The notes beneath the pieces were generated by a model. It worked only from the letters and a program-made list of their open reading frames with translations. It did not search any database and was not told the origin of the DNA. The translations under genes were made by a program, and so were the position numbers. Positions 1-56,353 of a DNA stretch of 64,000 nucleotides are shown here, one piece after another. The stretch comes from Microbacterium sp. AK009. GTDB lineage: Bacteria > Actinomycetota > Actinomycetes > Actinomycetales > Microbacteriaceae. Positions within the stretch are counted from its first letter, which is position 1, and every line of letters starts with the position of its first letter. The DNA lies in contig NZ_JACCCG010000001.1 of assembly GCF_013410955.1 (NCBI RefSeq), positions 541,605 to 605,604 on the forward strand. The letters run 5' to 3'.

Positions 1-458
1 TGAGTCCGGTGCCGCTGAAAGGCGAGTACAAGCCCAGCACCTCGCAGTGGGCGCGTGAGCAGGCCGAGCAGTACGAGGCCTCGGGCGGAACCGAGGCGAA
101 CCTCCTGCGCGGTGTGCCGATCATCGTGCTGACCACCGTCGGCGCGAAGAGCGGGGGACTGCGCAAGACGGCGCTCATGCGCGTCGAGCACGACGGCCGG
201 TACGCGGTCGTGGCGTCCAAGGGCGGCGCCCCCGACGAGCCGGCGTGGGCGGCCAACATGCGCGCGCATGCGCACGTCGAGCTGCAGGATGGCGCGGTCA
301 AGCGCGACTACCTCGCGCGCGAGCTCTCGGGCGACGAGTACACCGAGTGGTGGAACCGCTCGGCCGAGGTGTGGCCCGATTACAACGAGTACCAGAAGAA
401 GACCGACCGGAAGATCGCGGTCTTCGTGCTCGAGCCGTTCGACCCGCCCGCGGAGTGA
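1..458 (+). CDS. F420H2-dependent (Ddn-type) nitroreductase family protein, 5' end cut by one base
   Basis: Small protein of the deazaflavin-dependent nitroreductase (DUF385/Ddn) family, which uses reduced coenzyme F420 to reduce varied substrates in actinobacteria. Visible family motifs are [18 protein letters not shown] (about residues 45-60) and [17 protein letters not shown] (about 70-85), the usual F420-contacting stretches. The length of about 150 residues is normal. A GTG at 9 could start the gene, but the in-frame codon just before the window edge reads ?TG-AGT-CCG-GTG, so the true start is probably an ATG or GTG whose first base lies outside the window. It is followed by an unrelated leaderless gene at 539. 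Substrate unknown. Family call is firm, exact start is not. Confidence 0.8.
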
Positions 459-8517: not shown

Positions 8518-8826
8518 CGGGGCAGTCAACCACACCGCGCCGACCTCGATCACTCCGGTCAGCGACCTTTCGTCGACGGTCCTGCTCGTGGCATCCGCCC
8601 CGCCCTTCACCGAGAGACCACGCTTCCGCGGAGACCCGGCTCAGCGCGGGAGGTCTCGACGGAGATGCGGCTTCTCGGCGGGCCCGGGACGGGTCGCACG
8701 CCTCGAGCCGCCGCGATCGTGACGACCCACCCCGCCAGGTCGGGTGGCTCGACGCGATGAGGGTGGCTCGGCGAGGGTGAGGTGCCGTGTGCGGATGCTG
8801 CCGGGGAATCGCGCCCCGACGCCCCT
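8518..8826. other. 309-bp gap with no supported gene
   Basis: Lies between two minus-strand genes. Open frames here lack a Shine-Dalgarno or any recognisable domain. A weak CCACCC...GGGTGG stem near 8730-8752 is the only structure I see, possibly a terminator for the oxidoreductase transcript from upstream. Confidence 0.4.
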
Positions 8827-17846: not shown

Positions 17847-17880
17847 GCTCGGCGCGGTCCGCTCCGCTCGGCGGCACACA

Positions 17881-17981
17881 GGAGGACATCGGCACGTGGG
17901 AGGCGGCGACGGGGGGTCGTCGCCCTCCCGTGTGTCGATCTCCTCCCATCGCCGCGCGCCCCGCGCCGCGGGGCGCGCGGC
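17881..17981 (+). terminator. Two consecutive strong hairpins ending the GH130 operon
   Basis: 17881-17946 forms a long imperfect hairpin: GGAGGacATCG pairs with CGATcTCCTCC and CACGTGGGAGG with CCTCCCGTGTG around centre 17913.5. It is followed at 17951-17981 by a perfect 15-bp palindrome (GCCGCGCGCCCCGCG, one-base centre). There is no T-tract, as is common in actinobacterial terminators. In the first hairpin GGAGG/CCTCC recur at 18-nt spacing, similar to the 65-bp elements elsewhere in the window. Confidence 0.6.
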
Positions 17982-18044
17982 GGCCACTACGCCCGTGTCC
18001 GATTTCCGCCGGAACCCCCGGGCGTCTCGTGACAGGCTGGGTTC

Positions 18045-24212: not shown

Positions 24213-24224
24213 CGCGCGCGTCGG

Positions 24225-24289
24225 TCACAGAATCACGTCGATATCACAGACATCCGCCGAGATTCTGTGACGTCGGCGTGATTCTGTGG
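24225..24289. repeat. 65-bp four-motif palindrome, TCACAGAATC type (copy 2)
   Basis: TCACAG at 24225 and 24244 (19 nt apart) faces CTGTGA at 24265 and CTGTGG at 24284 (19 nt apart). Both inverted pairs have centre 24257. Outer arms CACAGAATCACG/CGTGATTCTGTG are perfect over 12 bp, and several further differences would still allow G-U pairs in RNA. Lies between convergent genes. Same motif, spacing and span as 10322-10386. Confidence 0.8.
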
Positions 24290-24348
24290 CTGTCGCGGAC
24301 TCGGGCGCGCGGCGCGGCACCGCGCGCGCGCCGCGGCGACCCCGCGAC

Positions 24349-47640: not shown

Positions 47641-47689
47641 AATAGCGGTGCGACCAGCCTAGCGCTCGTCATCCACTATGCTCGGGGTG

Positions 47690-47777
47690 TCGCGACTGGC
47701 GTTGAGGTGGGACACCACCGGGGAGCGACCGGGAGTCATCCGTCCGACCGCAGAGCATCCGACCGCACGCCTGGGCC
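47690..47777 (+). ncRNA. ZTP (pfl) riboswitch
   Basis: Upstream of glyA-folD. Recognisable aptamer parts: CGACTGGCG (47693-47701), hairpin GGTGG-GACA-CCACC (47706-47719), CCGGGGAGCG (47718-47727), a variable linker, and the second conserved block CCGCACGCCTGGGC (47763-47776). This matches the pfl motif that binds ZTP/ZMP and controls folate one-carbon genes in many actinobacteria. A TATGCT -10 (47677-47682) gives a start just before the aptamer. ZTP accumulates when 10-formyl-THF limits PurH, so binding should switch glyA and folD on. Confidence 0.85.
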
Positions 47778-47811
47778 GATGTCCGATCCGCCGCTGTGGA
47801 AGGAGACCGTC

Positions 47812-49086: not shown

Positions 49087-49153
49087 CCCCGCACCGCCCG
49101 GTCGCAGAATCCCACTCACCGGGCACGCGCCCCCTGCCACCCCGCGCCTCCCC

Positions 49154-49222
49154 GCGAGAATGCATCTGGACGCCGAGGATGCGGGGTCACCCCACACCCT
49201 CGGCGCGCAGATGCACTCTCGC
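49154..49222. repeat. Long hairpin / 65-bp four-motif palindrome between glyA and folD
   Basis: 33-nt arms (49154-49186 and 49190-49222) with a 3-nt loop and only five differences, three of them transitions that keep G-U pairing in RNA. Within each arm an 8-mer recurs 19 nt apart: GAGAATGC (49156), GAGGATGC (49175), then ACACCCTC (49194) and GCACTCTC (49213). Both inverted pairs share centre 49188. Geometry equals that of the TCACAGAATC elements at 10.35 and 24.26 kb. It ends 27 nt before the folD start. Confidence 0.8.
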
Positions 49223-49248
49223 CGCAGGGACGCAGAAGGAGAGACGAC

Positions 49249-52329: not shown

Positions 52330-53202
52330 TCACTCCAGCAGCGTGACGCCGGCACCTTCGCCCAGCCACTCCTGGGTGATGGCCTCGAGCGTGCCGTTCT
52401 CGCGCAGTGCGTCGACGGCGGCGGTGACCCGTTCGGTCAGCGGCGAGTCCTTCGCCAGCACGAGACCCCACTCGTCGGGAATGCCGGCGGTGGGGAGCTC
52501 GCCCACGATGAACGAGTCGTCGATGTACACGCCGGTGGCGTAGTACGCCGTCGGCAGGTCGAGCACGAGACCGTCGATCTGGCCGGCCTCGAGCGCGGCC
52601 TTGGCGTCTTCGTTGGTGTTGTACAGCTGCGCGGGGGTGTCGGGCTGGACGACCTCTTCGATCGTCTGCGCGCTCGTCGACCCGACCATGGCGCCGAGCA
52701 GCAGACCCTTGGTGTCGGCGAGCGAGGAGACCCCTTCGGCGGCTGCGTTCCCCTCGATGGCGACGATCGCCTGACTTGCGGCGTAGTACGGCGAGGAGAA
52801 ATCGACGTTCTGGGCTCGCTCCGGCGTGATCGAGTACTGCTGGATGTTGACGTCGAAGTCCTTCGGCCCCGGCGCGATGGCTGCTTCGAAGGTGGTCCGC
52901 ACCCACTCGACATCCTCGGGGGCGAAGCCGAGCTCTTCGGCGACGGCGTACGCGATCGCCGCCTCGAAGCCCTCGCCCGAGGCGGGGTCGTCGTCGATCA
53001 CGTACGGGAAGTACGCCGGCTCGCCCGTGGCGAAGGTGAGCTTGCCGGGCGTGATGTATCCCTCGTCGGCGGGAGCCGAGGATGCGTCGGAGCCGGCGTC
53101 GGCGTCGGAATCGCCGGAGCCGGTGGCGCATCCGGTGAGGGCGAGCGCGGCGACGGCGACGCCGGCCAGGGCCAGGCGCAGGCGGGAACGGGTGCGGGAC
53201 AT
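52330..53202 (-). CDS. Polar amino acid ABC transporter substrate-binding lipoprotein
   Basis: Bacterial extracellular solute-binding family 3 protein. Lipobox LTGC (Cys25), Asp/Ser-rich linker, then LTFATGEPAYFPYVIDD, VNIQQYSITPERAQNVDFSSPYY and the hinge GAMVGSTSAQTIEEVV. 290 residues, normal for the family. GGAGGCAGCC precedes ATG 53202. Ligand unknown among polar amino acids or opines. First gene of the importer operon. Confidence 0.93.
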   Translation of the reverse strand: MSRTRSRLRLALAGVAVAALALTGCATGSGDSDADAGSDASSAPADEGYITPGKLTFATGEPAYFPYVIDDDPASGEGFEAAIAYAVAEELGFAPEDVEWVRTTFEAAIAPGPKDFDVNIQQYSITPERAQNVDFSSPYYAASQAIVAIEGNAAAEGVSSLADTKGLLLGAMVGSTSAQTIEEVVQPDTPAQLYNTNEDAKAALEAGQIDGLVLDLPTAYYATGVYIDDSFIVGELPTAGIPDEWGLVLAKDSPLTERVTAAVDALRENGTLEAITQEWLGEGAGVTLLE

Positions 53203-53378
53203 GGCTGCCTCCAGGTGCGGGATGACGCGCCGCGTGCTGCCGCGGACGTGCGCCTCTCCATCATCCTGCGAGACAGCGGATGCTGCGCCCTCCCGCGTCG
53301 CTTTGTTACACGCTCTTCATGCGCGGCCTTGGGCGGCGCGAGGATACGCGCGCGGAGGTTGGCGGGTCGCGCGGAACC

Positions 53379-53920
53379 CGCGTTCGCGAGGAGATCCACC
53401 TTCACGCGGATGCTGCGGGGTGATTCGGTCCTCAGGAGCGCGGATCTCCGCGCAAGCGCGAGAATCCAGCGGCCGGGGAGGGCGAACGGAGGGTGCGGAG
53501 CGGGACGCGCGGAGCGGGGGCTCGCGAAATCCGCGTTCGCGAGGAGATTCTCCTTCACGCGGATGCGGCGGGGTGATCTGGTCCTCAGGAGCGCGAATCT
53601 CCGCGCGAGCGCGAGCGCGAGAGTGCAGCGGGCCGGGGAGGGGCAGGGAAGGGCGAGGAGCGGGCGCGGAGCGGGAGGGAGCGGAGCGGAAGAACATCCC
53701 GAAACCCGCGTTCGCGAGGAGATTCTCCTTCACGCGGATGCTGCGGGGTGATCCGGTCCTCATGAGCGCGGATTTCCGCGCGAGCGCGAAATTGCAGCGG
53801 AGCGGGAGGGCCGCGCCGGATCCGCGTTCGCGAGGAGATTCTCCTTCACGCGGATGCGGCGGGGCGATCTGGTCCTCAGGAGCGCGGATCTCCGCGCGAG
53901 CGTGAAAGTGCAGCGGCCGG
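53379..53920. repeat. Four-copy array of about 100-bp non-coding repeats
   Basis: This 764-bp stretch (53203-53966) has no supported gene. Repeat cores run about 53379-53476, 53532-53640, 53707-53800 and 53823-53920, anchored by CGTTCGCGAGGAG at 53381, 53534, 53709 and 53825 (steps 153, 175, 116, so reading frame is not kept). Each core is highly alike and holds three short palindromes: CGCGTTCGCG, GGAGATTCTCC and GCGCGGATCTCCGCGC. Linkers are purine-rich GGGAGCGG runs that vary in length. The array follows the stop of the minus-strand gene at 53967 directly. Confidence 0.85.
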
Positions 53921-53966
53921 GGAGCGGCCACGACGCGGAGAGGGGGGCGCGGCGCGGGAGGGCGCG

Positions 53967-54518
53967 TCAGAGCTCGTCGAGCATGCGGCGCTGCTCTTCG
54001 GTCAGGCCGTCACGCAGTTCCTTCCGGCCCTGCGCGGTGGCGCGGGAATCGCCGACCGCGGGGCGCGGGGCCGTGGCATCCGCTCCTGTCGTCTTCGTGC
54101 GCGTGGCGCGGTCGTACAGGGCGCCGGCGTGCGCCTCGACCCGGTCGTCGATGACGTCGTAGATCGCCCAGCCGATCATGAGCACCACGGGCGGCAGGAT
54201 CCACCCCCAGAACCACCCGCCGATCGACACACCCGAGAACAGCACCGTGGCGATCCAGACGAGGAAGGCGACGGCGAAGGCGACGAAGAACTCCGCCACC
54301 TTCTCGCCCACCCGCGTGCGTCGGTCGGCGGAGCGTGCCGCCATCCCGCCGAACCACCGGGACAGCAGCGGCTTGATCCAGATCACGATCGCGGTGAGCA
54401 CGATGCCTGCCCACAGGGCCGCCCACCCGACGCGTGCGGGGGTGAGGAATCCGATCACCAGCAGCACCGCGATGTTGAACACCAGCAGCGAGACGAACCG
54501 CACGACCCACTTCTTCAT
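53967..54518 (-). CDS. Hypothetical four-helix membrane protein
   Basis: 183 residues, no named family recognised. Four predicted helices: FVSLLVFNIAVLLVIGFLTP, GWAALWAGIVLTAIVIWIKPLL, FVAFAVAFLVWIATVLFSG and GWFWGWILPPVVLMIGWAIYDVI. A charged cytosolic C-terminus ends in LTEEQRRMLDEL. The first two helices resemble small holin-like or DUF-type actinobacterial membrane proteins. ATG 54518 has GGAG very close upstream. The 53.4-53.9 kb repeat array lies in its 3' flank and would be in its transcript. Confidence 0.75.
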   Translation of the reverse strand: MKKWVVRFVSLLVFNIAVLLVIGFLTPARVGWAALWAGIVLTAIVIWIKPLLSRWFGGMAARSADRRTRVGEKVAEFFVAFAVAFLVWIATVLFSGVSIGGWFWGWILPPVVLMIGWAIYDVIDDRVEAHAGALYDRATRTKTTGADATAPRPAVGDSRATAQGRKELRDGLTEEQRRMLDEL

Positions 54519-56183: not shown

Positions 56184-56252
56184 CCCGCGCCCGGCCCGCG
56201 CCACCCCCGTCCGGCCGCACCGCGCGGACTCGTGCCACCCCCCGGCCGCCGG

Positions 56253-56319
56253 GTTCGGGGCGGGATCGTTCGTCTGGGGCGCGAACGGCCCGCCCCGAAC
56301 GGAAGAAGCCGCCCCGAAC
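56253..56319. repeat. Four-motif palindrome, TTCGGGGCGG type
   Basis: GTTCGGGGCGG at 56253 and GTCTGGGGCG at 56272 (19 nt) face CCGCCCCGAAC at 56290 and 56309 (19 nt), all about centre 56286; outer 11-bp arms are perfect. An additional exact 12-bp pairing joins 56253-56264 with 56289-56300. Same geometry as the elements at 10.35, 24.26 and 49.19 kb, with a third motif. Between convergent genes. Confidence 0.7.
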
Positions 56320-56353
56320 GCTCGACGGGCGGGAGAGCGGCCCCCCCGCGGCC

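Follow-up and report, generated by a model that had tools for sequence, protein, structure and literature searches.

A tandem array of four-box extragenic repeats behind a gene end in Microbacterium sp. AK009, tentatively read as DNA-level sites

Behind the stop codon of a membrane-protein gene of Microbacterium sp. AK009, we found four tandem copies of an element (named type A) that recurs, in divergent form, at other gene ends of the same genome. Of the explanations considered, the most likely one, although we favour it only tentatively, is that a dispersed extragenic repeat, specific to this lineage, was amplified in tandem to four copies, and that its four words would be read as DNA by a putative protein. 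Hairpins at gene ends rank second, neutral local copying third and a MITE origin fourth.

The window, by which we mean the whole 64,000-nt stretch analysed, lies in contig 1 of a 3.46-Mb genome in 14 contigs. The array consists of four units of ~92 bp (53376–53911). On one side of it is the stop codon of a gene for a 183-aa membrane protein (53967–54518, minus strand), on the other a gene for an amino-acid solute-binding protein (52330–53202, minus strand; PF00497, E 1.7e-23). The former has no Pfam family and has relatives in other Microbacterium records, the closest named one being that of Microbacterium kunmingense (92% identity). The latter is preceded by a leader with the block GTAACAAAGCGACGCG (53203–53330, minus strand), which is kept in M. 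kunmingense and upstream of which the array lies. This position, 3′ of one gene and 5′ of the other, had been correctly anticipated, and a repeat search recovered the four direct repeats at the spacings originally given (153, 175 and 116 bp). In pairwise comparison the unit cores are identical at 79–85 of 92 positions; the spacers (61 nt, G-rich, 53468–53528; 83 nt, G-rich, 53621–53703; 24 nt, 53796–53819) can be aligned with one another by introducing many gaps. Chance is countered by BLAST matches of the array elsewhere in its own genome, with E values down to 8.4e-17.

It had also been stated that the spacing breaks every reading frame. This is wrong, given that 153 and 175 + 116 are multiples of 3: units 1, 2 and 4 lie in phase with one another, and unit 3 alone is shifted. 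A coding repeat was nonetheless rejected, although three of the four units share a frame, as a codon-bias caller finds no gene in the array despite a 204-aa open frame that crosses it.

The type A element measures 82 bp and comprises four boxes in >> << order, namely box 1, 4 nt, box 2, 18 nt, box 3 (reverse), 4 nt and box 4 (reverse). A 14-bp word, CGCGYTCNNGMGGA, is common to all four boxes, with 18 bp between direct boxes and 32 bp between the inner pair, whereas the sequence of the 18-nt centre is free. A four-box scan (d = 18, loop 18) located unit 1 at 53379–53460, with box 1 at 53379–53392, box 2 at 53397–53410, an 18-nt centre, and boxes 3 and 4 at 53429–53442 and 53447–53460. The same scan placed unit 2, with the layout of unit 1, at 53532–53613 (box starts 53532, 53550, 53582 and 53600), unit 3 at 53707–53788 (53707, 53725, 53757 and 53775) and unit 4 at 53823–53904 (53823, 53841, 53873 and 53891). 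With a covariance model whose 12 seeds include these four units, they score 95.0, 91.8, 99.5 and 97.7 bits, respectively. As to the three palindromes predicted for each unit, CGCGTTCGCG was present in four of four, while GGAGATTCTCC occurred in three and GCGCGGATCTCCGCGC, as an exact match, in two. When the window was searched for ungapped hairpins at stricter settings, no type A unit came up as a single dyad, since the arms are imperfect; one search setting picked up parts of two units.

The 12-unit model gave 52 matches in the own genome at E values up to 1. Restricting these to E ≤ 1e-3 and to one match per place (the copy numbers and genome counts given here are lower bounds), we obtained at least 19 type A units at 10 or more loci. 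All 19 matched on both strands, as expected of palindromes. Besides the four units in the window, there are four at C3:362457, with a period of exactly 116, three at C1:441753, two at C7:37239 and six single units; a related element, type B, occurs at C6:346631 and C1:396792. A genome-wide BLASTN search, proposed as a check, gave the same picture: divergent array copies are present on other contigs, and the unit is dispersed. The first window unit is identical to the four units of the C3 array at 52–54 of 92 positions, and that array is internally less uniform than the one in the window (60–82 of 92). Other repeats adjoin two of these sites. On C3, repeated GTCGTTGAGCGAGCGCAGCGAGTCGAAACG blocks and a further palindromic element share one intergenic region with type A (L092, 1560–1720), and on C7 short tandem repeats of ~24 nt, resembling GCGCGAACGCGAAGAAGGGGCC, directly follow the type A pair (L002, 1725–1870).

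Type A is narrowly distributed. Within the genus, at least 8 of 149 genomes match the model at E ≤ 1e-6, own genome included, and the matches are mainly in the own genome and in G051. Draws from the family and the class gave matches in at least 2 of 199 genomes, again with the own genome included, and in at least one of 60, namely the own genome.

For a closer comparison, 37 units were aligned, taking the better strand at each place; 25 of 26 sources gave units, L070, L069:509, L008:1619 (type B) and L068:1652 were left out, and the alignment is nearly gap-free. The linkers are 4 nt long in 73 of 74 cases, and the centres measure 18 nt in 30 units, 17 in five and 19 in two. Between 21 loci, identity amounts to 63–74% in the boxes, 56–64% in the linkers, 35% in the centres and 33–34% in the flanks.

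In both the own genome and G051, type A units sit behind stop codons. According to our in-house codon-bias gene calls, on which all gene contexts reported here rest, the 10 own loci comprise 6 in convergent, 4 in tandem and none in divergent regions, and the seven loci of G051 comprise 5, 2 and none. Orthology between the two genomes is suggested for five sites, for three of them by alignment of the whole intergenic region and for two by the units themselves; at one of the latter two, four units face two. Over the five pairs, 245 of 280 box positions and 75 of 90 centre positions are identical. Boxes are thus hardly better kept than centres, so that present selection on the boxes would be mild at most; among the arguments against a strongly selected binding site, this one weighs most.

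At the site of the array, the sister species M. kunmingense has 190 bp, with a half-element recognized by eye, where the window has 764 bp. The window copies match this half-element by BLAST over 23–34 nt (E 1.5e-4 to 2e-3), and the model scores it weakly (15.4 bits, E 0.18). In five further records with the same gene order, no model match was found in the gap at E ≤ 1. The array thus either grew in the lineage of the window or shrank in that of M. kunmingense. A second difference concerns an element of another kind, termed E-type, which carries the word CGTTCGGGGCG and lies between convergent genes (56251–56321): it is part of 136 nt that M. kunmingense lacks between two BLAST matches which are otherwise continuous. 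Each of these comparisons with M. kunmingense would speak for turnover.

Covariance modelling of the units, another of the proposed checks, revealed no pair maintenance beyond shuffles. Over the 37 type A units, 77.5% of the cells were paired, as compared to 77.2% after shuffling (177 of 500 shuffles were as high), and the covariation score was 0.169 versus 0.159, a value matched by 76 of 500 shuffles. The paired structure did beat its slid versions, as would any dyad of shared words. For crossed pairing (box 1 with 3, box 2 with 4), 78.7% versus 78.0% of cells were paired, and the covariation score was reached by 5 of 500 shuffles while the other measures were not raised. The RNAalifold consensus of type A paired box 1 with box 3, because all boxes share one word.

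The same test gave a very different outcome with a second group of elements, the F-type, which form a CGAGA hairpin: 90.2% versus 77.0% of cells were paired, the score was 0.359 versus 0.127 (reached by 0 of 500 shuffles), and the 30-pair hairpin had 148 versus 43.6 double-changed cells, on 41 units that came from a hairpin-model search, which favours pairing. The test is therefore able to detect a maintained hairpin, and type A shows none, so its dyad is attributed to one word recurring at set distances and not to a maintained fold. We also compared the likeness of partner boxes within and between elements, using 22 groups (20 after merging the orthologues L003/L102 and L087/L100, with kinship among the units of other genomes ignored). 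Partner boxes were not clearly closer within elements (1:4, p = 0.054; 2:3, p = 0.33; 1:3, p = 0.08; 2:4, p = 0.56), nor was the direct pair 1–2 (p = 0.09). Boxes 3 and 4, the other direct pair, were closer within elements than expected (0 of 2000 shuffles), a likeness that points to local copying.

The idea of a structured RNA array, one of the three options in the original prediction, found no support for type A. Pair counts, RNAalifold and Rfam all fail to favour it, and no Rfam family reaches its gathering score in the array, the one sub-threshold match having 15.3 bits where 38 are needed (E 3.2). Elsewhere in the window, a ZMP/ZTP riboswitch (RF01750, 44.1 bits) lies at 47682–47783 on the plus strand, in front of a gene that looks, from its translated start, like glyA.

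The F-type model, built from five elements, has at least 43 matches at 22 or more places of the own genome, and at least 63 of the 149 genus genomes, own included, match it. The 41 units tested (one strand per place; the truncated L246:3016 left out) are distributed over 18 tandem, 17 convergent and 1 divergent regions, with 4 in called genes and 1 at an edge; for the 35 with a measured distance, the nearest stop codon precedes the unit by a median of 24 nt. Like type A, they have the four-box >> << layout, a position at gene ends and a similar length (81 bp); they differ in box spacing (19), in their word and in their strongly covarying hairpin. Word kept and pairs not in type A, pairs kept in the F-type: the two offer a comparison of DNA-level and hairpin-level constraint. 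One F-type hairpin is in the window itself (49148–49228), in front of a gene that is, presumably, folD-like by its sequence.

Elements of this general layout are more widespread. Ungapped hairpins were sought in a 464-kb sample of the own genome, made up of the window and of 20 stretches of 20 kb at even distances. Of the 28 obtained, 26 were intergenic, 18 in tandem, 8 in convergent and none in divergent regions. We then relied on a scan for four similar boxes in >> << order in intergenic DNA, which was designed after the window hits, was used with thresholds of 50, 54 and 56 in turn, and also returns some GC-rich low-complexity stretches (e.g., L154 and L145). At threshold 56 and direct spacings of 10–40, the own-genome sample gave 27 hits, 16 of them at spacing 18 (6) or 19 (10); of the six at 18, three came from the window array and the other three were type B elements. 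Among 19 hits from six shuffled sets neither spacing occurred, and 62 kb of coding DNA gave 8, with 2 at 18 and none at 19. Samples from eight other Microbacteriaceae (threshold 54, spacings 12–26) had 28 of 49 hits at 18 or 19, as compared to 1 of 34 in their shuffles (three or four each). With the nine samples taken together at threshold 56, the proportion was 37 of 56, 21 of the 37 being outside the own genome. In one genome of the family, G176, none of 4 hits had either spacing.

The 37 hits were located in convergent (16 hits; 95 regions available) and tandem regions (21; 394), and never in divergent ones (0; 202), a deficit with a Fisher p of 2.6e-6 if hits are treated as independent and each as its own region, which is untrue for the window array and for L056. 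For 28 of them the nearest stop codon is no more than 70 nt away. The box words vary by family and include CGTTCGGGGCG, CGCGAGAGTGCA, CGAGAAACCACC and CGAGACCCCGTC, among others. When both inner boxes of a spacing-19 element contain CGA, anchor distances of 29 (seven loci, three of them from one family) and 40 (four loci) predominate, and L220:5162 alone has 24. We recognized only in hindsight that 29 and 40 differ by about one turn of DNA. There is some preference for hairpins among spacing-19 elements, by about one base in 14 (p = 0.006), and their linkers are 50% paired versus ~34% in the outer flanks. In nine spacing-18 elements the linkers are 50% paired too, and the boxes show no hairpin preference.

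The window holds further examples. At 24217–24297, following the stop codon of an ABC-transporter-like gene at a distance of 4 nt, there is an element whose 34-nt arms are 82% complementary and contain TCACAGA-like words spaced 19 bp apart. More four-box dyads, with words like CGAGCCACC and CACACGGGAGG, occur at 8608–8800, where two elements are side by side, and at 17872–17982.

Looking farther afield, we scanned three more families of the order; G149 and G159 yielded one hit at spacing 18 and no spacing-19 hit, and G150 yielded two spacing-19 hits. From other orders, four genomes (threshold 54) produced 15 hits: 5 had spacing 18, none had 19, and in G366 three had 20. The corresponding shuffles produced 7, of which one had spacing 19. 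Spacing 18 is therefore not special to Microbacteriaceae. In G366, which is of the same class and another order, two neighbouring four-box dyads with the word CTTCACTCGC and 20-bp spacing are found at L207, 17186–17350. Judging from such hits, the four-box layout may reach beyond Microbacteriaceae with another spacing.

The account that we tentatively prefer for the window array would run as follows. A sequence-specific DNA-binding protein, either a mobilizing enzyme or an architectural protein, would read the four boxes as double-stranded DNA; the element would persist, in a REPIN-like manner, at gene ends, where it is presumably least harmful; and arrays would grow through unequal recombination between adjacent units. 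The original prediction had named a nucleoid or segregation protein as a possible reader, and the fixed box geometry would be compatible with such a target.

A somewhat unlikely alternative is that the units act as RNA, being bidirectional 3′-end hairpins that terminate transcription or stabilize mRNA 3′ ends, in which case dispersal would reflect the copying of useful gene ends. Bidirectional terminators occur behind stop codons and between convergent genes, and type A shares that position. Moreover, single type A units are predicted to fold at −39.9 to −53.1 kcal/mol (12 units), the spacing-19 elements lean towards hairpins, and the F-type, so close to stop codons, covaries strongly. Against this, the type A pairs are not maintained, the two direct copies of the word in each arm, 18–19 bp apart, are not needed by a hairpin, and most unit sides lack a T tract. 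No intrinsic terminator (stem-loop plus T tract) was found in 53150–54050, and the four window units have no T tract behind the dyad apart from one flank of unit 3, where 5 of 8 bases are T. Finally, the type A site at C1:770756 already has a separate, perfect 13-bp hairpin alongside, kept in G051 as judged by eye from an alignment.

It is also conceivable, if improbable, that no trans-acting factor is involved and that the units were built up and made uniform by replication slippage and by template switching at quasi-palindromes, in DNA at gene ends that is under weak constraint. The greater likeness of the window units to one another than to the C3 array would fit such neutral local copying, as would the other tandem repeats adjoining the C7 and C3 arrays and the similar divergence of boxes and centres between the own genome and G051. 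It leaves unexplained, however, why 10 loci have a word and an 18/32/18 geometry in common, why spacings of 18 and 19 recur with other words in other species and why divergent regions are avoided.

Insertion-sequence ends with paired transposase sites have a similar >> << layout with two direct boxes per end, and MITE copies are usually alike throughout. That type A units are MITEs, i.e., non-autonomous remnants of a classical insertion sequence with two transposase-binding repeats per end, is very improbable: the analogy in layout, the dispersed and lineage-limited distribution and the absence of the E-type stretch from M. kunmingense would suit such an origin, whereas the type A centres are unrelated between loci and no target-site duplication is evident at the six single-unit loci, whose flanks share words of only 4–6 nt (exact element ends being undefined).

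Dispersed bacterial palindromes are usually classed as REPs with a RAYT partner, or as terminators. The Y1 transposase family PF01797 was absent from all 11 genomes searched, own included, while the same search was positive in 5 of 14 controls, E. coli among them; a RAYT-driven REP was rejected for these genomes on that ground. A plasmid or phage origin was rejected as well, for want of any match. The predicted "burst of a mobile palindromic repeat" is, nevertheless, the best supported of the three original options, with the dispersal, the few genomes involved and the copy-number difference from M. kunmingense in its favour; no PF01797 partner was found for it.

As described in one report (PMC3116915), REPINs form tandem clusters of near-identical units, flanks included, the largest with four, and compensatory changes in them are called common. 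Type A is likewise extragenic and dispersed, with two conserved blocks in inverted orientation on either side of a centre of set length, and it too is found in tandem clusters of up to four. It differs from the REPINs of that report in that each arm consists of two direct copies of one word (>> <<) and in having no compensatory changes, which the F-type does have. Other differences are the lack of a PF01797 gene, the number of type A units found (at least 19) and the lack of a GTAG or CGTC tag in the four window units; over the 37 units, GTAG occurs in 1 and CGTC, at any position, in 12. We infer, by analogy, that type A would work like a REPIN, and we do not file it as one because transposase partner, tag and compensatory changes were looked for and not found. 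Like type A, the CGTC REPs described in PMC3733652 are palindromic and have no dedicated transposase; a term search of that paper turned up neither actinobacteria nor Actinomycetales, Micrococcus, Arthrobacter or Streptomyces. The literature within our reach, most subscription journals being outside it, yielded no description of such elements in Microbacteriaceae.

The gene ends studied here thus carry elements of a different, strict anatomy, in genomes without a PF01797 gene. A broader reading, which we regard as rather unlikely, is that gene ends in Microbacteriaceae, and perhaps in Actinobacteria more widely, harbour an undescribed class of four-word >> << nucleoprotein sites, with direct spacings of 18–19 bp, inner distances of mostly 29 or 40 bp where a CGA anchor is present, and a word that differs between families. 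If so, the sites would be occupied by related DNA-binding proteins of one family, which would mark gene ends for the purposes of insulation, roadblock termination or chromosome folding, and the window array would be an amplified example of them. Were one protein family to read these elements, Microbacteriaceae would possess a system for gene-end marking or mobility.
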